25,801 nt of DNA. Source: a virus. Where the stretch lies: positions 1-25,801 of IMG/VR virus record IMGVR_UViG_3300001282_000061, one strand, 5' to 3'. Made by a program: the position numbers and the translations under genes. Below are positions 1 through 17,744 of the stretch, piece by piece; the stretch's first letter is position 1, and each line of letters opens with the position of its first letter. Under the pieces are notes generated by a model. That model saw only the letters and a program-made list of their open reading frames with translations. It made no database searches and was not told the DNA's origin.

Positions 1-1859
1 TGGTATGTCAACAAACTTGATACTGTCGGTATTCCTACGCCATCCCAAAGTGCTGTTCCTGAATTGTATATCAAACGGTTGTTTACACCTACTGCACTTG
101 CAGCCACATCATCCAATGATGCCAAAGTTAATTTTGGTGCAAATGGTATGAATTTACTTGTACCACTATCCCACTTAAATGAGTTTCCGTTGGCAAGTCC
201 ACTATCATTTACATCTCCTAATAATCTGTAAGTGTTGTTTACATTCACCCATGCAGTTCCGTTCCATTTTATAATTTGTCCGTTTGCAACAGTTGTTATA
301 GTAACGTCTGTTAAGTCGTTTAATGTGCCTGCTGTTTGAAGTCTAAATTTAAAGGTTGTGGTTGCATTGTCATAATACAAAACCATATTGTCTGCAAGTC
401 CTGTATCGTCAACATCCGTTAAGTTAATTAAACTTGTACTTGATGTTCCTCTTACCCATCTGCTTGTTCCTGCACTCCAAAGCAATACTTGTCCGTTTGC
501 TGCTGCAATATTTCCGGTGTTTACATCAGACAAGTCATCTATACTTGCTGCTGCAATTGCTTGTTCTGCAAGGTTTGTTACAAATGCACCATTTATTTCA
601 ATATCAAAAGTGGTTGTATCTCCAACTGTGTTTGAGGAAATTGTTATTGAACCATCTGTTGAAATGATTAATATTGTGTTTCCACTTCCTCCAACATTCT
701 GACAACAACCTACTACTTGTTGAGGCGTTTGGTCATCACATGGCCCACAATCGTCACATCCACAACCACAATCTGCTGCAACTGCTTTAATAATTTCTAA
801 GTATTGTGCATAGTCATCTTTACCACATTTCATACCTACTGTGTATGCCATGTATGCTGCACTTGCTTGGTTAATAAACTTAGCCATTTCAAGTGCTTTG
901 TTTGGTGCTGATGTCAAATAAGCTGCATACTTTGTAGCCATATTTGTTAAGCAAGAATATACCTCACACAATCCTTGTGATGCGCTTACGGTAAATCTTT
1001 TTACACTTCTCAATTCATCAATTACTTCGATAATGCCATTGTTCAATTCTACATCTGCAATAAATACATTTACCCAAGTACCTGTCCAAATTGGAGTAAT
1101 ACTGAATGTTTGTAATGGACTAACCACATCTGCTTCTGGCACTAACATACCTGTTGGATAACTAACAGTATGTAATCTTACCACTGTTGAACCGCTTGGA
1201 TATGCAGTCAAATCTGTGATTGTCATTTCTGAACAACAATCGTCTGAGGTCCAATCTATGCAAACATCGGGTGATTGGTAAGTATAATTTTGAGTAAATC
1301 CTTTTGAGTAAATTACATCAACGGTGAAATTAAATTCAGCCAATGCAGTTAATGTTGGCAAAGTTTCGTTTACAACAATGGTTGTTAATCCTGTTGTTGC
1401 AGAATATGTTGCAGACACAATTGTTAATGAGGTTGTCCCTGCATCAATTATCTCCCATGCTGCTGCGGTGCCTGATACAACTTGACTTGCAATATCCCCA
1501 TTAACTGTAAAGGTTTTGGTGGCAATATTACTTGACACAACTAAGTGTGATTGTAACATATCCTCAATCTTTACTGTGTAAGTATAATTGTAGTTACCAT
1601 TTTTTACCAATGAGTTTTCTAAAGGTAATGTTCCTAAAGTTGCTGAATCGGTTGATGATGATATATCTATGTCTGGACTTCCATAGTTTACGTTATTGTA
1701 AAATTGTGAACCACTTGGGTCAACTGCCCTTAATAGTCCTAAGATATTACTATAAGTAACGTCTGAATAGTCAGTATTGTCTTTTAATCTAAAATCTTTT
1801 GGATTGTTAGTTAGGTCATATACTAAACCAATGTTAAGGTTTGATGCTGAAAATGCCAT
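1..1859 (-). CDS. Fibre-like structural protein, Cys-rich, 3' end outside window
   Basis: Open from an ATG at 1859 to the left edge, 619 codons with no stop; the C-terminus lies beyond the window. The start reads MAFSASNLNIGLVYDL. The composition is rich in Thr, Ser, Val and Asn, as in phage surface proteins. A Cys cluster CxCxCxxCxxC lies at residues 364-374, with a CC pair at 385-386. From about residue 440 there are five degenerate repeats, each carrying an (L)xDV core (Val at about 446, 483, 519, 550, 585) followed by a NGQxLxW..GT..W-like stretch; repeats of this style are common in phage tail-fibre and appendage proteins. It follows the lysis cassette and may have its own promoter. Role in host binding or virion surface is inferred; the exact virion position is unknown. 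Confidence 0.75.
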   Translation of the reverse strand, partial: MAFSASNLNIGLVYDLTNNPKDFRLKDNTDYSDVTYSNILGLLRAVDPSGSQFYNNVNYGSPDIDISSSTDSATLGTLPLENSLVKNGNYNYTYTVKIEDMLQSHLVVSSNIATKTFTVNGDIASQVVSGTAAAWEIIDAGTTSLTIVSATYSATTGLTTIVVNETLPTLTALAEFNFTVDVIYSKGFTQNYTYQSPDVCIDWTSDDCCSEMTITDLTAYPSGSTVVRLHTVSYPTGMLVPEADVVSPLQTFSITPIWTGTWVNVFIADVELNNGIIEVIDELRSVKRFTVSASQGLCEVYSCLTNMATKYAAYLTSAPNKALEMAKFINQASAAYMAYTVGMKCGKDDYAQYLEIIKAVAADCGCGCDDCGPCDDQTPQQVVGCCQNVGGSGNTILIISTDGSITISSNTVGDTTTFDIEINGAFVTNLAEQAIAAASIDDLSDVNTGNIAAANGQVLLWSAGTSRWVRGTSSTSLINLTDVDDTGLADNMVLYYDNATTTFKFRLQTAGTLNDLTDVTITTVANGQIIKWNGTAWVNVNNTYRLLGDVNDSGLANGNSFKWDSGTSKFIPFAPKLTLASLDDVAASAVGVNNRLIYNSGTALWDGVGIPTVSSLLTY

Positions 1860-1878
1860 TGTAATTGTTTATTGGTAG

Positions 1879-1886
1879 CAAATTTA
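1879..1886 (-). promoter_or_regulatory. Candidate -7 element for the fibre-like gene
   Basis: On the minus strand this reads TAAATTTG, an exact match to the Bacteroidota -7 element TAnnTTTG, 20 bases upstream of the ATG at 1859. No TTTG is found at the ideal 19-21 base distance, so it is supported by one element only. Confidence 0.35.
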
Positions 1887-1915
1887 AACAATAATACAAT
1901 AGGTTGTTTTTTGAA

Positions 1916-2002
1916 TTATTTTTTGTTAGTGAAGTAGATTCCAAATCCAATAATTGCAGCCAAGATAATTCCTGCATTAAATATTAACCATCCTACACTC
2001 AT
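1916..2002 (-). CDS. 28-aa single-pass membrane peptide at end of lysis cassette
   Basis: Start MSVGWLIFNAGIILAAIIGF; residues 4-23 form one hydrophobic helix, followed by a short polar and basic tail (YFTNKK). Its ATG overlaps the stop of the spanin-like gene (ATGA), the same arrangement used by other genes of this cassette, which is the main evidence that it is translated. It could be a second holin, pinholin or antiholin-like peptide, or a small membrane anchor. The position after holin, endolysin and spanin suggests a role in lysis, but the sequence alone does not show function. Confidence 0.55.
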   Translation of the reverse strand: MSVGWLIFNAGIILAAIIGFGIYFTNKK

Positions 2003-2481
2003 CGTTTCAAAAGTATAAATAATCCCAAACATAATAATATTCCAAATGTCATTCCATAAACAAATCTATTCCACCACTTATCTTCTGGACAATCTTTTAT
2101 AATGACTTGTGGATTGATTGTTTCTTTAACGATTGGCTTTCTAATGTGTGTTAATACTATTTTGCCATTTATTAATTCTGCTTTGACATTACATAAGCTA
2201 TCTACAAACAATATTGGTTCAGCTTTTATTATTGAAAGAATTTTATTTGCCCTACCTTTAGTATAGCAAGTATCTTTTAAACTCCATGCAAGAATACTAT
2301 CTACATCATAAACTACTTTGGTACTGCCTGTATCTCTTACTGCATGAATGGTATCTCTAATAGTGTCTGTTTTATTATACATAAAACCATTTGTTTTTAA
2401 CCAATTTATTTTTCTATTGGCTTTTTGTTGAACACTACATGATGTAAAAATTAATAGTGATAGTATTATAAGGTATTTCAT
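1999..2481 (-). CDS. Putative unimolecular spanin (lipoprotein plus C-terminal TM)
   Basis: 160 aa. Residues 1-15 form a lipoprotein signal: a hydrophobic run ending in FTSC, with Cys15 as the likely lipidated residue, a form typical of Bacteroidota. The middle is a soluble, charged stretch of about 120 residues. Residues about 140-158 are a strong transmembrane helix (GMTFGILLCLGLFILL) ending in a basic LKR. A lipobox at one end and a TM at the other is the diagnostic layout of unimolecular spanins such as T1 gp11, which link outer and inner membranes and fuse them in the last step of lysis of a Gram-negative host. The gene lies downstream of the endolysin and overlaps both neighbours by ATGA. 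The function call rests on topology and context, not on sequence similarity. Confidence 0.7.
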   Translation of the reverse strand: MKYLIILSLLIFTSCSVQQKANRKINWLKTNGFMYNKTDTIRDTIHAVRDTGSTKVVYDVDSILAWSLKDTCYTKGRANKILSIIKAEPILFVDSLCNVKAELINGKIVLTHIRKPIVKETINPQVIIKDCPEDKWWNRFVYGMTFGILLCLGLFILLKR

Positions 2482-2612
2482 TTTTTTGTTGCTTCTTCTT
2501 TAATATAAGCATCTACAAGTTTTTCAACTGATGTGCCTACAAAGTTTTTCCCATTGTCTTTGAAAAAATTAAAAAAGTTAATTAGGTCGTTTTTTCTTTC
2601 TTTTTTTGTCAT
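2478..2612 (-). CDS. 44-aa small protein in lysis cassette
   Basis: A lysine-rich 44-aa protein starting MTKKERKNDLINFFNFF. It starts inside the stop of the 27-aa ORF (ATGA) and its own TGA overlaps the ATG of the spanin-like gene, so it sits in a chain of translationally coupled genes. No signal peptide or membrane segment is seen. Function is unknown; the conserved linkage style is the reason to accept it as a gene. Confidence 0.55.
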   Translation of the reverse strand: MTKKERKNDLINFFNFFKDNGKNFVGTSVEKLVDAYIKEEATKK

Positions 2613-2692
2613 TTTTTAATAGCTTCTTGTGGCTCGGGTGTATTGTCGGTACTTCGTGTACCTTTTGGCGATATAACCCTCACCTTATCCAT
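2609..2692 (-). CDS. 27-aa small ORF between endolysin and spanin
   Basis: Starts MDKVRVISPKGTRSTDNTPE and ends with ATGA overlapping the next ORF. The ATG lies 2 bases after the endolysin stop. It is hydrophilic and proline-containing, with no motif. It may only keep ribosomes moving between endolysin and downstream genes, or it may be a real micro-protein. Support is from spacing and coupling alone. Confidence 0.4.
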   Translation of the reverse strand: MDKVRVISPKGTRSTDNTPEPQEAIKK

Positions 2693-2694
2693 TT

Positions 2695-3261
2695 CTAATT
2701 ATCCCAGTTGGTAGTGATTGCTTGGGTTATTCTTTTGGAAATTATATCAATGTTAGTAAAATACAAATTCATGTCTGCTTCGTTATCCATGAAACAAACT
2801 TCTATTAAAATGTTATGTCCAATAGGCCTCATCCAACCAAGTCTTTTTCTTGCGGTTTGATGTTCTCCTTTCACACCTCTATTCTTAAAACCTAATCCTG
2901 ATAATAAATCTACAATCTTTTTTGCAATGTCTGTTTCTTTTTTACTTGCACCTGTTGGAACAATTACTTCCACACCATTTGCAACTTTATTAAAAGCATT
3001 GAAGTGAATATCTATTAAGATACTATCCTTGTCTGACTTAAATACATTTTTGATCCAAGCAAGTGTTTCTACCAAGGCATTTTTATTTAAGTCCGTTTGG
3101 GCATGTATTCCAAACCTCTTTAAATCTTCTACAATTCTATCTCTCAATTCTAAGGTAAGTTCTCCCTCAGATTTTCCTTTTGAGAATGGCGTTGGTGGAA
3201 CACCTTTGTCTTTTGCCCCTGAACCTGCTGAATGTCCTGCCGATATAAATATTCTTTTCAT
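2695..3261 (-). CDS. Endolysin: N-acetylmuramoyl-L-alanine amidase (Amidase_3)
   Basis: 188 aa covering one Amidase_3 domain. It should cut the bond between N-acetylmuramic acid and L-alanine in peptidoglycan, releasing progeny phage. The zinc ligands of the family are visible: His10 in IFISAGH, Glu32 or Glu34 in the SEGELTLEL segment, and His86 in IDIHFNA. The catalytic Glu is Glu154 in ILIEVCFMDN. There is no signal peptide and no separate cell-wall-binding domain, so export should depend on the holin. Its ATG overlaps the stop of the preceding 44-aa ORF (TAATG), and holin, endolysin and spanin lie in order. Confidence 0.9.
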   Translation of the reverse strand: MKRIFISAGHSAGSGAKDKGVPPTPFSKGKSEGELTLELRDRIVEDLKRFGIHAQTDLNKNALVETLAWIKNVFKSDKDSILIDIHFNAFNKVANGVEVIVPTGASKKETDIAKKIVDLLSGLGFKNRGVKGEHQTARKRLGWMRPIGHNILIEVCFMDNEADMNLYFTNIDIISKRITQAITTNWDN

Positions 3262-3655: not shown

Positions 3656-3657
3656 GT

Positions 3658-3702
3658 GACAAATGTAGGAAAATTTTGTTATAGTTGTTTTCCTACATTG
3701 TC
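3658..3702 (-). promoter_or_regulatory. Long stem-loop abutting the holin start codon
   Basis: Read on the minus strand, GACAATGTAGGAAAA (3702 to 3688) pairs with TTTTCCTACATTTGTC (3673 to 3658), giving 15 bp with one bulged base and a 14-base loop. The 5' arm contains the last codons and TAG stop of the KilA-N gene; the 3' arm ends 2 bases before the holin ATG. No T-run follows, so it is unlikely to be an intrinsic terminator. It should cover the holin ribosome-landing zone, and ribosomes finishing the KilA-N gene could open it. Confidence 0.65.
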
Positions 3703-4349
3703 TTTTTGTACATATCTGAAAATTCTGCTAACCTTTCGTGTCTTGTTTTTATCGGCTTACATTCGTTAATCATTGAGATATTTATTTTTTGCAGTTTATT
3801 CATTAACTCTAATTCTTGTTCGGTTGCTTCATTTCTTGTTTTAGTTTGTCCGCTACCAAATACAAGATAGTTTAAAAACCTTGCTTCTCTTTGGAAAATT
3901 AATGGGTCAGGATTTTTGCCATACCAATTATGGTAAGTTTCACTAATTGACTTACACATTTCTTTATAGTGGTCCCCTGCCTCATGTCTAAAGTCTATCA
4001 AGTTGTCATAAACCCATTTAATAACTTTTACTTCAAATTGTGGCGATAACCAAAAACAAAACTTAACAAACAAATATGGATTTAACCATGTTGACCCTCC
4101 TCTACCCCTTGTAGAATCTACTAACTTTAAATGGGCGGAATTGTCCCCATTTAAAATCTCTTGTTCCAATGCTTCCATAAAATTAATTGTGTTTTGATTT
4201 TCAAAAAAATCTTTAAACCTTTTTTTAGTATCGTAGGTTAAGTTAAAACTTTGTAAAACATCGGTTGCATTAAAATAGCCATCTTTTGTTCGTTGACTAA
4301 CTTTAGTACCGTTTAAATCTCTTTGCATAATTTGATTAGTTTTTAGCAT
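3693..4349 (-). CDS. KilA-N domain protein
   Basis: 218 aa from the ATG at 4349. A TTG 21 bases upstream would extend the frame, but it is part of the promoter -7 element, so it is rejected. The N-terminal half matches the KilA-N DNA-binding domain: GYFNATDVL at residues about 24-32, then a helical segment, then GRGGSTWLNPYL at about 82-93 followed by WLSPQFEVKVIKWV. The remainder is helical and charged. KilA-N proteins occur in phages and large DNA viruses as DNA-binding proteins or antirepressors; the target here is unknown. It has its own promoter and lies between the capsid genes and the lysis cassette, so its transcript probably also feeds the lysis genes. Confidence 0.85.
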   Translation of the reverse strand: MLKTNQIMQRDLNGTKVSQRTKDGYFNATDVLQSFNLTYDTKKRFKDFFENQNTINFMEALEQEILNGDNSAHLKLVDSTRGRGGSTWLNPYLFVKFCFWLSPQFEVKVIKWVYDNLIDFRHEAGDHYKEMCKSISETYHNWYGKNPDPLIFQREARFLNYLVFGSGQTKTRNEATEQELELMNKLQKINISMINECKPIKTRHERLAEFSDMYKKTM

Positions 4350-4367
4350 AATTATTTTAAATATGTG

Positions 4368-4398
4368 CAAATATAAAACTATTTTAACAAATTACAAA
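4368..4398 (-). promoter_or_regulatory. Bacteroidota-type promoter of the KilA-N/lysis unit
   Basis: On the minus strand: TTTG at 4398-4395, 19 bases, then TATATTTG at 4375-4368. Both elements match the Bacteroidota primary-sigma consensus (TTTG, 19-21 bases, TAnnTTTG) exactly. The ATG of the KilA-N gene is 18 bases downstream of the -7 element. Confidence 0.7.
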
Positions 4399-4429
4399 CT
4401 ATTATATTGAAATAAATCCTTTTTAAACT

Positions 4430-4457
4430 AAAAACCCCCTACAACGTCTGCAAGGGG
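4430..4457 (-). terminator. Intrinsic terminator at the end of the candidate ncRNA
   Basis: On the minus strand CCCC, one bulged T and TGCA pair with TGTA and GGGG around a GACGT loop, followed by G and TTTTT. It lies just upstream of the KilA-N promoter and so separates that unit from transcription coming from the right. Confidence 0.55.
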
Positions 4458-4587
4458 TAAATTAGGGTTTGCTATAACTTATATCAATCATGCAATTTGA
4501 TTAATTTTCGTTTGTGCAGTAAATGGCCAACAAGCTTCAGTAGATAGGCATTGCAGGCACTATTGTTTGGCTGGCTTAAACTAAATG
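4430..4587 (-). ncRNA. Candidate structured ncRNA with its own promoter and terminator
   Basis: A non-coding interval of about 155 bases lies between the promoter at 4591-4623 and the terminator at 4430-4457. No ORF longer than about 10 codons is present on the minus strand. Visible helices: GCCAAACAA (4571-4563) with TTGTTGGC (4533-4526), 8 bp with one bulged base; AATCA (4502-4498) with TGATT (4490-4486) around a 7-base loop; and the terminator hairpin. The 5' end is inferred from the promoter position. It could instead be only an untranslated stretch between two units; it does not look like a tRNA. Confidence 0.45.
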
Positions 4588-4590
4588 ATA

Positions 4591-4623
4591 CAAAGATAAT
4601 TAATTCCAACAAAAAAAGCCAAA
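4591..4623 (-). promoter_or_regulatory. Candidate promoter of the ncRNA
   Basis: On the minus strand TTTG at 4623-4620, 21 bases, then TATCTTTG at 4598-4591, an exact TAnnTTTG. The -33 element overlaps the stem of the preceding terminator. Spacing is at the upper end of the usual range. Confidence 0.45.
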
Positions 4624-4637
4624 CATTTCTGCTTGGC
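4611..4637 (-). terminator. Intrinsic terminator after the 327-aa gene
   Basis: On the minus strand GCCAA (4637-4633), a 10-base loop, TTGGC (4622-4618), then seven T. The gene ends at 4671, so this closes the capsid-adjacent transcription unit. The plus strand also has a T-rich tail after the stem, so it may work both ways. Confidence 0.7.
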
Positions 4638-4670: not shown

Positions 4671-5654
4671 TTATGAAGGTTGTCCTTCTGTATCGTTCAT
4701 TATCTTGTACGCTGCAACTTTCTCCTTAATTACTTCCAACACTTCTTGGTTGTCTGAAACTAAGTAAGTCATAAACGCACCCAATGGATCATGTTCACGT
4801 TCTTTCCATTTAAAGATTGCCTTACCGCTATTCTTGCCATTCTCATCACACATGAAGAAACTTCTTGTTTTGGCATCTTGATTGATTATCCTTGCCTCTA
4901 ACGCTTCAATTACTTCATACTGTCTTTGAGGTTTGTGCATGCCTGTAATGGCAGTTCTTGAAGTCAATCTAATAAACTCATCTGCCTTAATAGGGTTGGT
5001 AGTGATTTGCTCAAGCAATAATCTCAATCCATCTAAATTATCTTCATCCACATATCCTTGGACATTTGGAATTAACATGTTTTTAGATGCTTCAATTAAT
5101 TGCTCGTCATTTAAACCACCTTCCTCAATTTCAGAAAACAATTTTACTTTGACCATTGCAGCAATTCTTTTTGCTTTTACTTTTTCTACGTTCTCGTTTA
5201 CTTTGTCCTCAATCACAAACCAAGCATTGTTGTTTTGCATGTTCTCAGGTTTATCAAAGTTTTGTGGTGAGAAGTGATAAAAGAAGAACGCTAAGTCCTT
5301 ATCCATTATTAATGCTCTGCCATTCTCTATTGGTAAACTTTGAACACCAAATTCTAATTCGCCTGTTTTTGGATTAGGTCTGCCGGGAGTAGAAGAATAT
5401 CTTACTTCCGCATTTTCCTTATTTACATAGGCGCTTACAACAAACTTTAAACCAAGTGACCTTGGCATTGCAAACTTACCGGGGTTATCTCTGTCGGGTT
5501 GTATCAAACCATCTCTATACTTGATAGTAATTGGCTTGATTAATTTTCCTGATTTGTCAATGTTGCGTTCAAACTTTGCGTCAAACTCATTCATTGCAGT
5601 TCTCAATTCTGGGATTGAGTTGATTTTTGCTAATTCGTTATTAATATATATCAT
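4671..5654 (-). CDS. Capsid-adjacent protein of unknown function, 327 aa
   Basis: Starts MIYINNELAKINSIPELRTA. The N-terminal half is beta-rich and contains PDRDNPGKFAMPRSLG and RPNPKTGELEFG stretches; the C-terminal half is more helical, with several charged heptad-like runs. No catalytic motif or membrane segment was recognised. It is the gene directly downstream of the major capsid protein, separated from it by a terminator that must be partly read through unless an unseen promoter exists. That position suggests a head or head-associated protein (decoration, head-tail joining), but this is inference only. Its leader contains ATTTTACACAA just before the ATG, shared with the scaffold gene leader. 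Confidence 0.75.
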   Translation of the reverse strand: MIYINNELAKINSIPELRTAMNEFDAKFERNIDKSGKLIKPITIKYRDGLIQPDRDNPGKFAMPRSLGLKFVVSAYVNKENAEVRYSSTPGRPNPKTGELEFGVQSLPIENGRALIMDKDLAFFFYHFSPQNFDKPENMQNNNAWFVIEDKVNENVEKVKAKRIAAMVKVKLFSEIEEGGLNDEQLIEASKNMLIPNVQGYVDEDNLDGLRLLLEQITTNPIKADEFIRLTSRTAITGMHKPQRQYEVIEALEARIINQDAKTRSFFMCDENGKNSGKAIFKWKEREHDPLGAFMTYLVSDNQEVLEVIKEKVAAYKIMNDTEGQPS

Positions 5655-5720: not shown

Positions 5721-7115
5721 TTATGCTGAAACTAACAACATTTGATTTACACCCATTTGATGTGCGCCAATTTCTGAACGCATGTATGTAAAGTTCATGT
5801 CGATGTCTGTAACTTTTAAGCCGGGACCTGCACCGTTTACTGACCAGATTTCCATTTTTCTGCTGTAACCGTTTTTCTCTTTGTATCTTGCACCAATGTT
5901 ATCAGTCAATTGTAAAGACTTAGGGTCTTTCTTTTGAGCCATTGGAATAAATACTCCGTAAGTTTGTGCTACTGAACCTGTAATACCAAAAGTTTGTCTG
6001 TTAGAGAACTCCATGAATGTTTGATACATGAATGTTCTTGCACCTCTTTTTACAGAGTTGAAGTCAGTACAAATTGATTTACCTTGTCTGCCATATTTAG
6101 CTTCCATTTGAGCTTCAACATAGTTGATGTTAGTGTTAGCTAAGAATGCAGATAGTGCATTTTCAAACTCAGTAGTGTATGCTCTTGAGAATAATCCCAT
6201 AACAAAGTCACCTGCGTATTGAGTATCTAACAATCTGTTGTAAGTATCAACGTCTGCTAAACTTGTAGAACCCGGAGTGTAAGAATCTTGCATACCAAGT
6301 CTTTTAATTTCTGGAATTAAACCTTGAGTAGTGTAGATTGGTTCACCTGTTAATGGGTCAATTAATGAAGCATCACCTGATTCACCAAACAATAACGCAC
6401 CTGAAGTTTTTAAAGCCATTCTGAACTCAGCATCAGCAAAGTTGATGTTATACCAACTATCACCACTTGCAGTTTGCAAAGAGCCATCAAGACCACTTGC
6501 AGATACCCAACCATCAAACCATGTTTGAGTAGTTAATTGGCTACCTGTTACACCCATAGTTTCTTTGATGATTTGTGTGTAGTTAGTACGTTTTACTGCA
6601 CCCGGAACAACACCTTTAGGTTGTCTTGAACCTTCACTAAATGCACCTGAGAAAATACTGATTTCTTCGTTAGCTGCTACTGCAGGTAATTGGTAAGTAG
6701 TGCTTACAGGACTAATAGTCAATTCTGGTTGTGCAGGAGTAGTTACGTCAATAACAGTGATGATACCTGTTTGTCCACCTTTAAAGTAAACAACATCACC
6801 TAATCTTGGATAGAATCCGTTGTTAGTATCTACGTTTACTGCTGCTAAGATAACATCCATAGATGCCCCTGCTGCCGGTTGTGCTACGATACCTCTTGAA
6901 AGGAAAGTTGGATTTTTCAAATCATCCTCATAGTGAGAATAAATTTGATTAGCTACTGGTTTTAAAAAACCTAATTGGTTCAAAGTTAAGAACCATGATA
7001 AACCTTGATCATTGTAACGTTTGAACATTTTGCTCAATATGTCAGGTTTTACTACGTCGAATGCAGATACAATGTTCGATTGAAAATTGCCTGCAACTGC
7101 TGGGATGTTTGCCAT
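5721..7115 (-). CDS. Major capsid protein
   Basis: 464 aa, starting MANIPAVAGNFQSNIVSAFD. Expected to form the icosahedral shell, probably with the HK97 fold that tailed-phage capsids share. The evidence is position (terminase, portal, scaffold-like gene, then this), length typical of a tailed-phage capsid protein, Ala/Gly/Thr-rich composition without membrane or signal segments, and a strong terminator of its own directly behind the stop. An N-terminal helical region (residues about 18-45) is followed by beta-rich domains; the MEIWSVNGAGPGLKVTDID segment near the end fits a beta-strand P-domain-like region. No protease gene was seen nearby, so whether it is processed is unclear. Confidence 0.85.
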   Translation of the reverse strand: MANIPAVAGNFQSNIVSAFDVVKPDILSKMFKRYNDQGLSWFLTLNQLGFLKPVANQIYSHYEDDLKNPTFLSRGIVAQPAAGASMDVILAAVNVDTNNGFYPRLGDVVYFKGGQTGIITVIDVTTPAQPELTISPVSTTYQLPAVAANEEISIFSGAFSEGSRQPKGVVPGAVKRTNYTQIIKETMGVTGSQLTTQTWFDGWVSASGLDGSLQTASGDSWYNINFADAEFRMALKTSGALLFGESGDASLIDPLTGEPIYTTQGLIPEIKRLGMQDSYTPGSTSLADVDTYNRLLDTQYAGDFVMGLFSRAYTTEFENALSAFLANTNINYVEAQMEAKYGRQGKSICTDFNSVKRGARTFMYQTFMEFSNRQTFGITGSVAQTYGVFIPMAQKKDPKSLQLTDNIGARYKEKNGYSRKMEIWSVNGAGPGLKVTDIDMNFTYMRSEIGAHQMGVNQMLLVSA

Positions 7116-7195: not shown

Positions 7196-8356
7196 CTACC
7201 TACCCATGTACTTTTCAAAAATAATATCTGAAACGTCTTTTTGAGTTGGTTGTGGTGGTGGCGTTCCGTTATTCCCAACCCCTGAAGGATTGTGAATCTC
7301 TTTTGCTGCACTTAGCTTTGCTTCTGCCTCAACTTTAGCTTGCACCTTTGCGATTGCTTTGTTAATGTTTCTTGCAATTGCAATTTGATGTTGCTCTGCT
7401 ACTGCTTTTATCAAGTTCTCATCACTTAATTCCAATCCAGAATTAACGAGATTTTGAATAGCTTGATTGGCATACTGCTTTGCCTCTGCTGCTGGTAGTT
7501 CAAGTGTGTCTATGGTTTCAAAAGTTTCTTGACCATTCGCATCTTTTCCCTTCGGTACTGTGATAGGAATTTTACTGAAAATTTTGTCCACGTTCTTGCC
7601 AATTACATCTTCCCATTGCGCTTTGAGTTGTTGTCTTTGTTCTTGAACTTTACTTATAGTGTCGGAATTAGATTCAGTATTCACCTTCTCTAAAATTCCT
7701 TCTATTTCTTTGATTGATTTTGAAGCATCTCTTTCAAGTTGGAACTTGTTTAGTTCTGCTTCATCTTGTGCTTTTTCCAATTCTTCACCATACAAATCTT
7801 CATCAACTGTTGTTTGGTACTTTCTTGAAATCTGCTTTCTTAGTAAGTTTTCTTTGCCTACTAATCCGGGGTCTTTTAAAATCTCTGCAAGCACCAATGC
7901 TTCAATAGGGTCTTTTTCAGTTGTGCTTGAAAAATTCTTTACTGCTTTAATGATTGTTGGGTCATCTATTCCTGTAACTGATGCAAAGGCGTTTAATTCC
8001 TCAATGGTCTTTGAATGGAATTTTGTTGCAGGAAGTTGGCTGATTTCATCATACTTAGATTTGTAATCTTTAAGTTGGTCGTAATCAGACAATCTTGTTT
8101 TTGCATCAACCGCATCTTCTAATGAAGCATAGTTTGTTCCTAACATTTCATTGATAGACTGTAACCTGATTGCATCTGTAATTGTAGGTGCAGTTGACTC
8201 AGGTGTTGCAGGCGTTTCTGTTGGTGCAGGAGGTTCTACTGGCGGTGTTGTTTCGCTTGGTGTAGCATCAATTGGTGCATCACTTGGGGGAGTTTCCCTC
8301 AAATGTGCTGTCCCTTCAAGGAACAAATCTTTTAAATATTCTCCGTTATCGCTCAT
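7196..8356 (-). CDS. Probable scaffolding protein
   Basis: 386 aa. Residues about 18-55 are a Pro/Thr/Glu-rich disordered stretch. The rest is strongly helical and charged with long coiled-coil-like runs (for example residues about 170-250 and 320-350). A Gly/Asn/Pro-rich linker then leads to a short conserved-looking C-terminal helix, DVSDIIFEKYMGR. This is typical of internal scaffolding proteins, whose C-terminal helix docks on the capsid protein. The gene lies between portal and capsid protein, the standard scaffold slot. The 80-base gap to the capsid gene holds only an 11-codon ORF. Confidence 0.75.
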   Translation of the reverse strand: MSDNGEYLKDLFLEGTAHLRETPPSDAPIDATPSETTPPVEPPAPTETPATPESTAPTITDAIRLQSINEMLGTNYASLEDAVDAKTRLSDYDQLKDYKSKYDEISQLPATKFHSKTIEELNAFASVTGIDDPTIIKAVKNFSSTTEKDPIEALVLAEILKDPGLVGKENLLRKQISRKYQTTVDEDLYGEELEKAQDEAELNKFQLERDASKSIKEIEGILEKVNTESNSDTISKVQEQRQQLKAQWEDVIGKNVDKIFSKIPITVPKGKDANGQETFETIDTLELPAAEAKQYANQAIQNLVNSGLELSDENLIKAVAEQHQIAIARNINKAIAKVQAKVEAEAKLSAAKEIHNPSGVGNNGTPPPQPTQKDVSDIIFEKYMGR

Positions 8357-8375
8357 GTTTGTGTAAAATTACTTG

Positions 8376-8410
8376 CAAAGTAAGGGAATAATTCAATAGG
8401 TTGTTACAAA
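8376..8410 (-). promoter_or_regulatory. Weak candidate promoter for scaffold-capsid unit
   Basis: On the minus strand TTTG at 8410-8407, 23 bases, then TTACTTTG at 8383-8376, one mismatch to TAnnTTTG. It lies between the portal terminator and the scaffold ATG (8356), where a promoter is expected. Spacing is long, so support is modest. Confidence 0.35.
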
Positions 8411-8431
8411 AGTGTCTAATATTTTAGAAAA

Positions 8432-8457
8432 CAAAAATGCCACAAATTAATGTGGCA
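8432..8457 (-). terminator. Intrinsic terminator after the portal gene
   Basis: On the minus strand TGCCACA (8457-8451), a 6-base loop, TGTGGCA (8444-8438), then TTTTTG. A 7-bp perfect stem located 60 bases after the portal stop. Confidence 0.8.
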
Positions 8458-8516
8458 CCCTTGCGAAAAAAAATAACACTCACGAAAGAAGTATTTTAAG
8501 GTTACAAATATAATGT

Positions 8517-10910
8517 TTATTTTGGAACCTGGTTATTCATTTTTTCTTGTTCTGCAATTTCTTTGATAATGTTCTCGTCATTCTTTTGTTCCATTTCCAT
8601 TTCCTTTAATCCAAATCTTAATTCCATTTCTTTTTCGTATTTAAGGACAAGGGTTGCTCGTTCTTCATTTGCTTGCAAGGTTATTTTTTGCATCTCCATA
8701 TCAAACAATGCTTTTTCTTGCTCACCTTTCATTTGTTGAAGTTGTGCGTTTTGTTCGCCTTGTTGTGCAATGGCTGCTTGTTTCTCTTGTTCCATTCTAT
8801 CAATTGCCTCTCTTTCTTTTTGGGCAATGTATGCTCTTGCATATTTAGTCATACCTAAGTTCACAAAGTTTTGGACCATTAGATAATCACCATACCCTAA
8901 CAATGGTTGACCTTGCCTTCCTACTCTCATGCTTTCCAAAGCTGCATTCATAATTTGATCTTTCTCTTGTTGGTTCGGTCTTGCCTCTATTCGTATTCCA
9001 AACATAGAGTTCTCAATCTCACTTCCAATTTTTAACACTTGAGTAATATTCTTTCCAAACACTTTAGTATATCCTAATTCATACACCTTATTAAACTTAA
9101 CCAACATTTGCATTCGTAAGGCAATATTTCTACATGACCTTTCTTTAACATTCAATATTGATGTCAACATTGGCTTTAAGGAATTGATTGTGGCACTCAT
9201 GCTTATTTCAGACACTCCTACCAATTGGTCTGCTGAAGGTGAACTTGCATCTGCTACTCTATTAATACCTATTGCAGTTCTTATGCTTTCCAAATGTGAT
9301 GCAATGATTGTAAGGTATTCATTTAATTGATTACCCATACCGCCTTGCAATTCTTGAACTGGTCTGTAATTTGTTTGTGATGGTAAATGGCTTTTGGTTG
9401 CACTTGCTTGGAACAATACATCTCCGGTTTGGTTGGCAATTCTTAAAACTTCCAATGGCGTTAATTTATTATTACCCATAGAAATGTTTGTCAAACTTCC
9501 ATATTCAATAGACAATCCTGCTGGTCTTGCTTTGGCTAATGCGTTTTGAAGTTTTAACCATGCCAATTGAATACCATCTAAATAAGGAACAATTCTTTCA
9601 ATGTATGAACCTGCTTTCATTTTATAGAAGTGGTAACTTGAATTGGCTTGTGAAGGTGTTGGTCTTGGAATGTCAAATTGATGTCCATAATCCCAAGCAT
9701 ATTCACTTCCTACAATCCACTTACATCTGTAATACATTTGCTTTTTAATAACGTGAGTTTTTTTCGTTTCTGAATTTCTCACTTTACCGTATGTATCTTT
9801 ATGGACTACTTTTTTACCATCGGCAGTTGTTCTTTCGGTATTATACTCGGTATCGTCTGACTTGTACTCACAGTCAAGTACCATTATTCTAAAGTTGTCA
9901 TACTCATATCTGCCAAAGGCATCAGGTTGCATGTTACTTATTACATTTGGATTACCCCATTGTGTAAGTGCAAACTTTGCAATATCACTTAATTCAGGTT
10001 CAGTAAAGATTGCACTTCCATCAGGGTTGGTTAAACTTCTAATGTCTGCAATATTATAAAAGGTGTATTCCCCTGCAAATGGCATGTTTGTAAATCCTTC
10101 TTGGTGGTTGTATGGTATCACACACAATTCAGGGTCACAATATCTTACTTTTACTTTTTGGGTGAATGGATCAACATAATCTTTTACGCCTACAACGCCT
10201 AACTCAAAGGCATCTTCTAATAGCTTTCTTCTAATTTCTTTCCAATCAGACAATTCTAATGTATAGCTTATCCCTTGCTCAATAGCCATTTCAGATTTTA
10301 GTTTAAATCCACCTAATTGTGAAAATAACTCTAACTCTTGGTTACTTGCAGGGATGTAGTCTGGCTTTTCAAATTTAACATTGGCAGTTTGTTCAATCTT
10401 CTCAAAGTAGTCTTTCATTTCTCTTTCTACCCAAAGAAGCCATTTCATTTGTTCTCTTTCGGCTGAACTTGCTTCATCAATTCCATCGGCAAACACATCA
10501 TAGTCCATATCCTCACCAATTCCAAGAATAATATTTTTAAAGTTTGGTGCCACAGGAACAATATCCCAATTGACATTCATAAAACCTTTTCTTACAGAAT
10601 CATTTGTCACCCTTGTTGGGTTGGCAGATGTGGTTACTTGCGTAGGGATGTTTGGTGCCTTTTGTTGGGTAATGCCAAGTAAATCCATGTACTGAAATTT
10701 ATCTTGTCTGCCATTCCCATACCTTCTCCACTTTCGGAATATTTCTGCATCGGTGTAGTTTAAACCAGACAGATTATTTCTGTAAAGGGAATCTATTGCT
10801 TTACAATACGCAACATTCCAATCTTTTTTAAGTTTGTCAGATGGATTTATGTCATGTGATGGGAAACCATATATCCCTACTGTATTGCCATTATTAAATG
10901 AATTTGCCAT
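8517..10910 (-). CDS. Portal protein
   Basis: 797 aa. The portal ring forms the DNA entry vertex and binds the terminase. The gene directly follows the terminase large subunit, with TAATG overlap, and precedes scaffold and capsid, the standard order. The N-terminus (residues about 20-70) has DWNVAYCKAIDSLYRNN and a FRKWRRYGNG stretch. The middle is mixed alpha/beta with tryptophan and aromatic-rich strands. The last ~120 residues are a long Gln/Glu/Lys-rich helix, consistent with a crown/barrel region. Length fits the large portals of Bacteroidota phages, including crAss-like ones. I assign it from context, size and layout; no single motif proves it. Confidence 0.8.
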   Translation of the reverse strand: MANSFNNGNTVGIYGFPSHDINPSDKLKKDWNVAYCKAIDSLYRNNLSGLNYTDAEIFRKWRRYGNGRQDKFQYMDLLGITQQKAPNIPTQVTTSANPTRVTNDSVRKGFMNVNWDIVPVAPNFKNIILGIGEDMDYDVFADGIDEASSAEREQMKWLLWVEREMKDYFEKIEQTANVKFEKPDYIPASNQELELFSQLGGFKLKSEMAIEQGISYTLELSDWKEIRRKLLEDAFELGVVGVKDYVDPFTQKVKVRYCDPELCVIPYNHQEGFTNMPFAGEYTFYNIADIRSLTNPDGSAIFTEPELSDIAKFALTQWGNPNVISNMQPDAFGRYEYDNFRIMVLDCEYKSDDTEYNTERTTADGKKVVHKDTYGKVRNSETKKTHVIKKQMYYRCKWIVGSEYAWDYGHQFDIPRPTPSQANSSYHFYKMKAGSYIERIVPYLDGIQLAWLKLQNALAKARPAGLSIEYGSLTNISMGNNKLTPLEVLRIANQTGDVLFQASATKSHLPSQTNYRPVQELQGGMGNQLNEYLTIIASHLESIRTAIGINRVADASSPSADQLVGVSEISMSATINSLKPMLTSILNVKERSCRNIALRMQMLVKFNKVYELGYTKVFGKNITQVLKIGSEIENSMFGIRIEARPNQQEKDQIMNAALESMRVGRQGQPLLGYGDYLMVQNFVNLGMTKYARAYIAQKEREAIDRMEQEKQAAIAQQGEQNAQLQQMKGEQEKALFDMEMQKITLQANEERATLVLKYEKEMELRFGLKEMEMEQKNDENIIKEIAEQEKMNNQVPK

Positions 10911-13090
10911 TAATATATTATTTCTTGTACAAAAGTAAGATTATTTTCGTCATCTTGTTGTAAATTATCTTTTTGGACATCGGGCCAATAATTTAAGTTA
11001 CCTATTAAGGCAAATCCACCTGCTGCAAATAAGTCATAATTGGTCATATCATCAATGTCTTTTATGTCCCTTATTTCTATAAGCAAGTCTGAGTGCCTTT
11101 CTCTCATACCATGCCTCTGAATGTATGTTCGGTATTCATTAAATATTCTTTGCTTTAATTTTACCGTAGTATCTTTACCTGCAATGGTATCATACTTACC
11201 TCTCTCATTCCACCTTACTAAAAATCTATCAAAACCTAATTTTTCAAAATGTTCTGTTACGAATGGCACGTTTGTTTCGGGAAACATTGGGCAACCATAG
11301 TACAGGCACATCATTATCATGTCATCGCCATAGTCCTCTTTTGTAGGCAATCTATTTGAGTAAGTACATACAAACCTATTGCTTTGCCAAAGTTCCACCT
11401 CTCTATCGTGAGGGTCTAATAAAATATCGTGGCCCCAAAATACTGCACCGGCACCATCTGATTTCTTTTTACTTTTTACTTTGTTAGACTTGAATGTATC
11501 GGCCCCTGCGCAATAACCTAAATTCAATGGTTCCCAGCTTTCAAACTCAGCGTTCCAAAAAAACTTGTTCGATTCATTTCCTTGGAGAATTTTAGACATT
11601 CTGAATCTTCCATTAGGATCTTCTACAAATTTTACCTTTGACATATAAGGTTGACCTAACCACTCAAAGTTCCCTCTTATCATCATAGTCTTATCATCCC
11701 TTAGTTGGTCCAACCTTTCTTCTATAAGTGGTATGTTAAAGAATGGGTTTCTTTGGTTTGTTCTGAAACAACCTCTGTAAGTAGTTGGATGTTGCCTTTG
11801 GAATGCAAGCAAATCTGTTTTGTCTGTTTTCCTTGATAGGTATTCTATTTGGTTTTCTATGTATTGTCTTGCACCAATCTTTTCTTTGGTGTAATAAAGT
11901 TGTTCCTCAGTAGGTTCATCTATGATAGACATGCCATAGCCATCAACAAATCCTTCCAATCCATCGTATGCAGGCATGAATAAAATATATAATCCAGTTG
12001 CAGTTTGTCCGTTGGCATTTCTTTCGCCATACATAGAGTTGTCACAAAGTTCTCGGAAGTTCTCACCACCACCTGCTTCCATTTCTCCAACAGTTGATGT
12101 CTGAATGGTAAATCCATGAATGTTTCTACCGGCACCTGTTGACAATGTTAGTTTGGCAATGTTCCATCTTTCTACAACATTTCCTTCAACCAATTTCCCA
12201 ATTTCCTCATGGTGATAGAAATATAATTTCGTACCATCATAGGCGGTTTCCCCTGATGACCTAAAACTAATTTCACTGTCTAAGGTTTTACCACTCTTTG
12301 CTTTTATTCCTTTTTTACCTCTTGAAGAAGATGCCCTAAATGACAATAATGTTTTGGGGTCATCACCACCATTGTGATTAGGCCTAAAGAAGAATGGCAT
12401 TTTTCGCCATGGGTCAATGATGTGTTTACTAAAAACGTCTTTTGCAGAAACGTCAGTCATGGATTGAATACCGCCCCTTGCATTATTTAGCATGGATATT
12501 ATTAGGTAATGTATGCAGCTTGTTTTGTAAGTTGCCCCTTCCCTTCTGTGTTTTGGATAAACAAATCCGTAGCAATTGGGGTCACTATAACAGTATCTTG
12601 CAAATAAAAAGAACCTTCTATCCCTATCCCTGTATTCGGGTGGTCCATGGTCAAGGTTGTAGAAGTTTAGATAAAAATAATTCCAGCCATCAATGTAGGT
12701 TGCTTTGCCATTATTAAAAAACCAATATCCTGACAATACTCTTTTCCATTGTAGTTTTATCCATTTAATTTCTTCGGCATAGTATTCTACATCCTCATCT
12801 ATCTTGGCCCATATTTCGTCTTGGGTTAAGAACTCACCATCCTCATCTTGTATTTCTTGAAGTGCTTGAAGTTTGCTTGGGACTTGTTGCCTTGTGAATT
12901 TTTGTTCTTTGGCAGGTTTCCCAAATCCATCAATCTCATTCCAATTAGGTGTTTTTGGCAAATGTACTCTGATAGTATCTAAGTCAGGGTCATCTTCGTT
13001 AAAATCAATAAAAGGGACTTCGTCTGAATATCCTTCTAAGATAGATTTCTTTATCCCATACCTTTTATATTTATCAAGAGTTTCTTTCAT
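10910..13090 (-). CDS. terL: Terminase large subunit (TerL)
   Basis: 726 aa; the motor that packages DNA and cuts it. ATPase half: a divergent Walker A, RREGATYKTS, at residues 182-191; a Walker B-like hydrophobic strand LYFYHHEE at about 289-296, ending in the Glu pair; and a coupling motif TSTVGE at 331-336. Nuclease half (RNase H fold): the first acidic residue is Asp531 in YCAGADTF, and the last is Asp686 in NYDLFAAGGFALIG, matching the usual DxxxAxxxA ending. The ATPase and nuclease are well separated by a helical insert (residues about 395-470). The stop overlaps the portal ATG, and its own ATG overlaps the stop of the 80-aa gene. Confidence 0.9.
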   Translation of the reverse strand: MKETLDKYKRYGIKKSILEGYSDEVPFIDFNEDDPDLDTIRVHLPKTPNWNEIDGFGKPAKEQKFTRQQVPSKLQALQEIQDEDGEFLTQDEIWAKIDEDVEYYAEEIKWIKLQWKRVLSGYWFFNNGKATYIDGWNYFYLNFYNLDHGPPEYRDRDRRFFLFARYCYSDPNCYGFVYPKHRREGATYKTSCIHYLIISMLNNARGGIQSMTDVSAKDVFSKHIIDPWRKMPFFFRPNHNGGDDPKTLLSFRASSSRGKKGIKAKSGKTLDSEISFRSSGETAYDGTKLYFYHHEEIGKLVEGNVVERWNIAKLTLSTGAGRNIHGFTIQTSTVGEMEAGGGENFRELCDNSMYGERNANGQTATGLYILFMPAYDGLEGFVDGYGMSIIDEPTEEQLYYTKEKIGARQYIENQIEYLSRKTDKTDLLAFQRQHPTTYRGCFRTNQRNPFFNIPLIEERLDQLRDDKTMMIRGNFEWLGQPYMSKVKFVEDPNGRFRMSKILQGNESNKFFWNAEFESWEPLNLGYCAGADTFKSNKVKSKKKSDGAGAVFWGHDILLDPHDREVELWQSNRFVCTYSNRLPTKEDYGDDMIMMCLYYGCPMFPETNVPFVTEHFEKLGFDRFLVRWNERGKYDTIAGKDTTVKLKQRIFNEYRTYIQRHGMRERHSDLLIEIRDIKDIDDMTNYDLFAAGGFALIGNLNYWPDVQKDNLQQDDENNLTFVQEIIY

Positions 13091-16309: not shown

Positions 16310-16707
16310 CCTTTCTTACCCATCAAACACATTTTCTTTAAATCAAATTCACTAACTCCTTCATTATAGACACATGCAGTAGCAACATCCCCAAACAATC
16401 CTTTTGGCGTTAAGTACATTACTCTCTCTTTCCCCCTCGTTACTCTCCCTGCAAGTATCATACTCCCCTGCAATCCTTTATCCGAACTTAGCAAATCAAC
16501 ATACCATTTAGGCTGTCTAACTTCCCCTGCCAAAAATCCATATCCAGCAACACCCCTCTTACATCTTCTTAAAATATAATTATCATAAGTGTCATTTGCA
16601 ATGGCCGCCTCTACTAAATTCTTAAAAACCCCCCTTGGAGTAATATAATCCCCCATATACTTTGGATGACATACACCACGCTTTCTATTACTAATTTTTC
16701 TTTCCAT
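16288..16707 (-). CDS. Tandem-repeat putative DNA-binding protein, first late gene
   Basis: 139 aa built from two similar units: residues 21-58 (YITPRGVFKNLVEAAIAN....LRRCKRG..GYGF) and 98-137 (YLTPKGLFGDVATACVYN....LKKMCLMG..GWKVV). The TPxGxF...AA......Rxx pattern is like the small helix-turn-helix repeats (NUMOD/IENR-like) found in phage homing-endonuclease tails and free-standing phage proteins, so binding to DNA is likely. There is no nuclease domain here. As the first gene after the late promoter it could regulate late transcription. Many Cys residues (13, 49, 112, 127, 139) are present. The function is inferred. Confidence 0.65.
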   Translation of the reverse strand: MERKISNRKRGVCHPKYMGDYITPRGVFKNLVEAAIANDTYDNYILRRCKRGVAGYGFLAGEVRQPKWYVDLLSSDKGLQGSMILAGRVTRGKERVMYLTPKGLFGDVATACVYNEGVSEFDLKKMCLMGKKGWKVVKC

Positions 16708-16733
16708 GCCTATTTTCTTTCTAAATTATACGA

Positions 16734-16765
16734 CAAAATTAATACTTAAAAGTTATACGACAAAA
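16734..16765 (-). promoter_or_regulatory. Promoter of the leftward late block with twin TTTTGTCGTATAA boxes
   Basis: On the minus strand TTTTG (16765-16761), 19 bases, TAATTTTG (16741-16734): a full Bacteroidota promoter. Both elements are followed by TCGTATAA, so the -33 and -7 regions form a direct repeat TTTTGTCGTATAA. The first late ATG is at 16707. Confidence 0.65.
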
Positions 16766-16767
16766 TT

Positions 16768-16775
16768 TATTTTTG
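16768..16775 (+). promoter_or_regulatory. Candidate -7 element of the 61-aa HTH gene
   Basis: TATTTTTG, an exact TAnnTTTG, 31 bases before the ATG at 16807 and only 2 bases from the divergent late promoter. No clear -33 element. Regulators bound to the boxes next to it could affect both directions. Confidence 0.4.
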
Positions 16776-16806
16776 ATTATTTTTAAAATTTAATTACTTT
16801 TACATA

Positions 16807-16992
16807 ATGAAACACAATCCATTGTTCAAAAAATACAACCTATCACATGCAGACCTTGCAAGAATGCTTGGATCTAAAAACGAAACATCCTTCAAAAACT
16901 CATCAGCTCACAAAAGATACATGCAATTCTTTGAACAACTCGCCAATCATATCGAATCCGAAATCATTAAAAAGATAAAAGACGAACGATAA
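16807..16992 (+). CDS. Small putative HTH DNA-binding protein, 61 aa
   Basis: Starts MKHNPLFKKYNLSHADLARM. Residues about 10-35 (YNLSHADLARMLGSKNETSFKNS) have the spacing of a helix-turn-helix: first helix LSHADLARML, turn GSKNE, second helix TSFKNSSA. A second helical part, residues about 36-60, could mediate dimerisation. It is transcribed divergently from the late block and is the first plus-strand gene, a typical position for a Cro- or repressor-like switch protein. Alternative: a small nucleoid-type protein. Confidence 0.65.
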   Translation: MKHNPLFKKYNLSHADLARMLGSKNETSFKNSSAHKRYMQFFEQLANHIESEIIKKIKDER

Positions 16993-17375
16993 ATACCCTA
17001 AAATAACCCCAAAAACAACAATAAATATATCAACCCCTGAAAATTTGATACAAAACTAATTCATTGTTTGAAAATGCCAGTCCAAAATAACCCCAAAAAA
17101 CACCCTTTTACTAAACCCACCCCCTCACATATCCATTCTTAAAGATACTATTGTAGAAGGTAAGGGTTAATGAGGGTTGATTCTGGGAAGTGATTGTTTG
17201 GGAATGTGGCGTTTTAGAAATAGGTTAGAATGAGGTTATTGTGTAAATATGGCGTTTTTAAAGGGGATTGTAGGGAAGTAATCGCTTTTGCAGGAGTATG
17301 TGGCAGGTGATATATATGAATGCCATACGCCCCTGTACGAACCGAATCCGAATTTACGCAAGCCACCCCCTTAAA

Positions 17376-17407
17376 TTGTCACTTTTAACCCTATTTATTG
17401 TCGTATG
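17376..17407 (+). promoter_or_regulatory. Degenerate copy of the late-promoter repeat
   Basis: Reads TTGTC, ACTTTTAA, then TTGTCGTATG. The late promoter on the other strand has the same parts in the same order (TTGTC, ACTTTTAA, TTGTCGTATA) with 5 more bases between the first two. The -7 element is imperfect, so activity as a promoter is uncertain. Confidence 0.3.
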
Positions 17408-17744
17408 AAGCAGAATTTTAAGCGTTTTCACATGCAAGGGGAGTGTCGTATAATAGGCAATAGATCAAATCTACTTAACATAATATTAATTATAAGACAA
17501 AATTTGATACAATAAAATGATCATAAAAAGCCCTCCCCTATCGTTTTTTTAAGAAGTTGATGTATAAGCGTAAACCCTTGAAAATAAAGGGGATTAAACA
17601 GGCTTTTGTGCCTTCATAGGTATATGAATTGATACACCCGCTTGCAATTTCCTTTTAATACTGCAAATTTTCAAAAAAAATTCTTTCATAGTCCTAAATA
17701 GATAAGTTAGGGCAATCTAACTTTAAAAGTTTTGTTTATATAGC

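Follow-up and report, generated by a model that had tools for sequence, protein, structure and literature searches.

A predicted non-coding transcription unit in the late region of a putative Bacteroidota phage

We analysed a 25.8-kb IMG/VR virus record (the whole of this stretch is called the window below) and found that the 317-nt gap between a late gene and a KilA-N domain gene holds a promoter and an intrinsic terminator enclosing non-coding DNA, which together probably make an RNA of about 158 bases. The explanation that fits best, and to which we give about even odds, is a short non-coding start-stop unit at the edge of a variable gene slot that serves as transcription punctuation in cis, since the start and stop signals are conserved around a body that is not conserved. 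Should it be transcribed, an uncultured Bacteroidota phage would here provide a case of a transcription unit that codes for no protein. Its weight as a stand-alone finding is modest, as the RNA lacks a conserved body and any function in trans would be hypothetical.

The phage and its late genes

The structural genes of the window lie on the minus strand, which also encodes a small holin-like protein, an endolysin and a tail protein. The nearest matches of the large terminase, at about 29% identity, are in phages of Flavobacterium, Cellulophaga, Tenacibaculum and Maribacter, and these affinities point to a Bacteroidota host, an assignment that we regard as well supported. A second contig, IMGVR_UViG_2199352003_000020, differs from the window by one mismatch in 18.5 kb; it is the same phage and therefore carries no evolutionary information. 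The genes and late promoters to which the text refers are the following.

10910-13090, minus strand: large terminase
8517-10910, minus strand: portal
7196-8356, minus strand: presumed scaffold
5721-7115, minus strand: major capsid protein, SU10-like
4671-5654, minus strand: p327 (name given here), 327 aa, late gene directly 3' of the capsid gene and left border of the slot
3693-4349, minus strand: KilA-N domain protein, 218 aa, a separate accessory unit (PF04383, E=1.6e-18; ATG at 4349)
3660-3689, minus strand: late promoter of the holin-like gene, AACAAC-N16-TACATTTG, right border of the slot (motif, conservation)
8405-8376 and 1908-1879, minus strand: further late promoters, AACAAC-N16-TWnnTTTG

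Transcription signals in the gap

Read along the minus strand from p327, the order in the gap is T1, P1, the transcript body, T2, P2 and the start codon of the KilA-N gene.

4618-4637, minus strand: intrinsic terminator T1, GCCAAGCAGAAATGTTTGGC-TTTTTTT, closing the scaffold-capsid-p327 late unit (hairpin and T-run)
4591-4623, minus strand: promoter P1, host-type, TTTG-N21-TATCTTTG (pattern match, enrichment in the gap, conservation in L003)
4429-4586, minus strand: predicted non-coding transcript, about 158 nt, with its 5' end near 4586 and its 3' end near 4429
4459-4586, minus strand: variable transcript body, for which neither significant structure nor a relative was found (fold z, searches, comparison with L003)
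4434-4458, minus strand: intrinsic terminator T2, ACCCCTTGCAGACGTTGTAGGGGGT-TTTT (hairpin and T-run, homologue in L003)
4368-4398, minus strand: promoter P2 of the KilA-N gene, TTTG-N19-TATATTTG (pattern match, enrichment in the gap)

The strict promoter pattern occurs twice in the gap against 0.05 expected (2000 shuffles, P<0.0005), and terminators occur twice against 0.06 expected, a count that none of 300 shuffles reached. Across the window as a whole this pattern is about as common as chance predicts (4 versus 3.4), so the evidence for P1 and P2 lies in their position and conservation. The published Bacteroidota consensus has TTTG at -33 and TAnnTTTG at -7 (PMC7366714, PMC6847099), and P1 fits it. 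We regard T1, P1, T2 and P2 as real, non-random sequence patterns. The initial annotation had proposed promoter-like elements flanked by two terminators, as well as a separate promoter for the KilA-N gene; the former are present and enriched over shuffles of the gap, and the latter was found as P2 just 5' of the gene.

The predicted transcript and its body

The 5' end of the transcript was placed by assigning position -5 to the final G of the -7 element (PMC6847099), and the 3' end is where the T2 U-tract stops. ORFs of at least 60 aa are absent from the unit, and the longest coding frame within the transcript that begins with ATG, GTG or TTG has 10 codons; a 51-aa TTG frame in the ORF list begins upstream of T1.

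This is the canonical architecture of an intergenic sRNA, and a tentative alternative to punctuation in cis is that P1 to T2 is the gene of a lineage-specific small RNA acting in trans by pairing with host or phage mRNAs. There is precedent in B. thetaiotaomicron, where nine of 11 sRNA candidates were confirmed by Northern blot, eight of the nine with a start site and an intrinsic terminator (PMC7366714). The unit shares with the sRNAs of this kind, GibS among them, its own -33/-7 promoter (P1), a non-coding body of sRNA size free of any protein-coding frame, and a 3' intrinsic terminator (T2). Unlike them it is phage-borne, its body shows neither conservation nor structure, and its transcript is predicted only.

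The unit had been put forward as a stand-alone RNA whose structured body was built of an 8-bp helix and a 5-bp hairpin. The independent non-coding promoter-to-terminator unit is supported and the structured body is not: at z = +0.37 the body (4465-4588) has a slightly less stable fold than shuffled versions of itself, and counting in the terminator brings the full 163-nt transcript only to z = -0.89. The helix does exist (4505-4498 paired with 4490-4483), its quality being that of chance, and the hairpin is likewise indistinguishable from chance. When 514 stretches of 120 nt, taken from the two strands of the window, were scanned coarsely for structure, the slot was no outlier. The core of the body has a G+C content of 44%, against 28% for non-coding DNA overall. 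A 10-nt direct repeat, TTTAGTTTAA, flanks the body and was considered as an insertion scar; a repeat of such length is expected by chance in an AT-rich stretch, and the candidate was dropped.

No homologue with an alignable body was found in the phage, viral and genome collections searched. Rfam gave no match at the gathering cut-off, with only sub-threshold chance matches at E values up to 10. ARAGORN and Rfam found no tRNA or tmRNA in the unit, and a tRNA or tmRNA gene was discarded as its identity. Distant blastn against INPHARED returned two chance-level matches, to an Acinetobacter phage; an exact 17-mer against IMG/VR viral contigs found the same phage only; an 18-mer against GTDB genomes gave four matches in unrelated phyla, which we take as chance; and blastn of the transcript against 14 related contigs gave a best E of 0.02 besides the same phage. 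With no covariance-model match and a fold no better than that of shuffles, a conserved structured RNA family of the Rfam type is not supported. As conservation is confined to the signals for start and stop, transcription punctuation or a small RNA particular to this lineage seems more likely than a new structured RNA class.

Relatives and the variable slot

Relatives were anchored on p327 and the capsid protein, with capsid identities from 77% to about 26%. The nearest of them, L003 (IMGVR_UViG_3300042310_000427, capsid 77% identical), keeps T1 with an identical hairpin, TTATCTTTGTA behind T1 and a homologous T2 (CCCTTACAGAAATGTAGGGG-TTTTTTGGTTTAAA) in the same order. Its body between P1 and T2 comprises only about 40 bases, which are unrelated to those of the window and do not align with them. 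Beyond T2 lie TATATTTG and then, in the place of the KilA-N gene, a 167-aa ORF unrelated to it. A terminator at the position of T1 was also seen in the other close relatives inspected, while the conservation from P1 to T2 is that of two genomes, the window and L003.

In both of these phages T2 stands between P1 and the accessory gene, as it would if P1 gave rise to a 5' leader with an attenuator, whose transcripts stop at T2 and express the accessory gene by conditional read-through. We consider this unlikely: in either phage a good promoter P2 lies immediately 5' of the accessory gene and serves that gene, the downstream genes are unrelated (KilA-N versus the 167-aa ORF), and the predicted pairs of the window RNA include no alternative anti-terminator pairing.

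Of nine viral contigs, six have an empty interval between p327 and the holin-like gene: L014, L015, L016, L018, L019 and L020 (IMGVR_UViG_3300033571_004310, its slot read as L011) run p327-terminator-promoter-holin with nothing inserted. The initial annotation had staked the RNA on homologous phages that keep the interval and show covarying pairs; the unit is absent as a block from these six relatives, and in L003, where it has an altered form, the body cannot be aligned. In L017 (the same contig as L013) the slot holds, at 7536-7735, a tRNA-Trp and then an RNA of about 110 nt closed by GGGGC/GCCCC and moderately folded (z about -1.9), and the slot of L003 holds up to four RNA-like intervals. 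As judged from these contigs, the p327-holin interval is a variable slot that swaps RNA genes and accessory genes. Across 26 loci with 97 intergenic terminators, ten non-coding intervals between two terminators were listed, five of them with a promoter-like box, and three of these five fall in the p327-holin slot; the combination of two terminators and a promoter is rare.

The RNA genes found in the slot of relatives, a genuine tRNA in L017 and well-folded RNAs in L003, favour a small RNA acting in trans and count against punctuation in cis. Also against punctuation are the G+C-rich core of the body and the fact that the conservation comes from one relative only, and a sequence-specific RNA gene may be lineage-specific and weakly structured. 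The trans-acting RNA in turn has to contend with a body that is unconserved in L003, has no relative elsewhere in the collections searched and has no significant structure.

By its sequence relationships the KilA-N gene is a separate unit that starts at its own promoter P2. Its homologue in phage L058 encodes a 55% identical protein; the two phages are similar in DNA across the KilA-N gene and, weakly and collinearly, across P2, but not across the RNA unit. Since the homology to L058 starts at P2 without the RNA, the RNA unit appears to belong to the left border of the slot and not to KilA-N; a role for the RNA as a fixed KilA-N partner was rejected, L058 carrying KilA-N without it.

Late promoters and timing

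In this phage group the genes for scaffold, holin and tail have in common a late promoter of the form AACAAC-N16-TWnnTTTG, which was seen ahead of such genes in the relatives L006, L014, L015, L017 and L019. In nine related contigs AACAAY-N16-TWnnTTTG gave 43 matches, against one for the reversed control, nearly all of them on one strand per contig. The AACAAC element, which stands in place of the host -33 TTTG, suggests a phage factor that redirects the host polymerase, and the motif is useful for timing predictions in this phage group.

P1 and P2 lack the AACAAC late motif; together with the L003 counterpart of P1 and the promoter of the L017 tRNA they have, as read from the sequence, the host-type TTTG element. 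Since P1 has the host-type element and not the late motif, the RNA unit looks host-transcribed and not late, and we infer that the host polymerase in its unmodified form would read it, which would set it apart from the surrounding late genes. The earlier description of a late-region RNA holds for its position, but its expression class is doubtful, P1 being without AACAAC-N16-TWnnTTTG.

Promoter position also bears on a further explanation, that the unit is a stranded relic, either an old position of the holin promoter or what is left of an accessory gene or tRNA cassette that has been lost. P1 AATTATCTTTG lies right behind the p327 terminator, like the holin promoter AATTATCTTTG in L014 and L019, and the body is unconserved in a slot that gains and loses cassettes. 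Decay is hard to reconcile with how well L003 preserves T1, P1 and T2; P1 is also without the AACAAC of the holin promoter, and the holin gene has its own conserved late promoter. A relic is in our judgement improbable and, like an attenuator, less likely than punctuation in cis or an RNA acting in trans.

Proposed role and comparison with known systems

If the unit is transcription punctuation in cis, T1 would end the late capsid unit, host-type RNA polymerase would start at P1, and the transcript of about 158 nt would halt at T2, which would shield the accessory gene from P1 and from leaking late transcripts. The RNA body would be a by-product that evolves rapidly, or at the most an RNA specific to the lineage. 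The unit would be part of the phage backbone, placed where the slot begins on its left and just before the separately promoted P2-KilA-N. Transcription, host-type timing and the cis role are what we infer here from the arrangement of the DNA.

A small RNA acting in trans gains something from target prediction: the best target in the phage itself is the region around the start codon of the capsid gene (-28.9 kcal/mol, P = 0.016 as a single test). This is one of 32 start regions, the pairing fails correction and is unexceptional across the whole window, and the RNAs of L003 and L017 show no matching target pattern. On these grounds antisense pairing at the capsid start was rejected as a candidate. 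A wider conjecture is that the slot is a dedicated small-RNA site whose host-type promoters act before or independently of the late genes, with the window RNA repressing capsid translation early by pairing across the start codon; we think this very improbable.

The unit resembles phage 'moron' units in having an autonomous promoter and terminator among late genes, a promoter class different from theirs, and presence as a block in some relatives and absence from others. Unlike a moron it has no protein gene, and the adjoining accessory gene, KilA-N, is separately promoted. Several regulatory RNAs of phages are known, among them lambda OOP, P22 sar, P1/P7 c4 and VP882 VpdS (reviewed in PMC12197685). 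The predicted RNA is like these in being a short phage-encoded non-coding transcript; they have defined antisense or Hfq-dependent activities, none of which is supported for the window RNA. The roles in packaging, host takeover or decoying that had been suggested for it found no support either. In the phi29 packaging motor the strongly folded pRNA (phi29-type pRNAs have about 160-170 nt) is in the size range of the window RNA, which unlike pRNA has no fold signal, and the large terminase-portal set of this phage is of a different type.

Other RNA-like and regulatory features

Among the RNA-like intervals of L003, positions 8218-8355 form a separate promoter-to-terminator unit of about 125 nt (z = -4.0), in which 10 nt of the hairpin loop TGTGTGATAA match the complement of the terminator loop TTATCACACA perfectly; a kissing-loop or self-attenuating RNA is possible. 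At 8120-8205 (z = -4.35) a TATATTTG box is followed by two strong hairpins, of which the second is a terminator; the stretch could be an RNA unit in itself or simply the 3' end of the 167-aa ORF. About 300 non-coding bases at 8395-8700, with long helices, a z of only -1.3 and no Rfam match, could be a larger RNA.

The top of the structure scan was the portal-scaffold gap of the window (8357-8516, minus strand), with z = -5.2 in one stretch and -3.6 when refolded. The fold is a terminator within a longer helix, and its counterpart in L003 (3527-3670) has z = -5.4. At 16690-17530 the window has a divergent control region with 765 nt of non-coding DNA and repeated TTATACGACAAAAT and GTCGTAT motifs, which are possibly operators of an early/late switch. 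An inverted repeat, GTAGGAAAA...TTTTCCTAC, at 3656-3700 (minus strand) spans the KilA-N stop codon and the holin promoter and was not seen in L003.

In L058 about 1.5 kb 5' of the KilA-N homologue (1529-3001) is free of ORFs of 60 aa; it contains hairpins that resemble terminators, along with a tRNA match below the threshold (27.6 bits versus 29). ORFs that by eye are like GIY-YIG homing endonucleases occur in L016 (8264-8842) and L019 (8258-8848); such ORFs are inserted after the endolysin gene in some relatives and absent in others.
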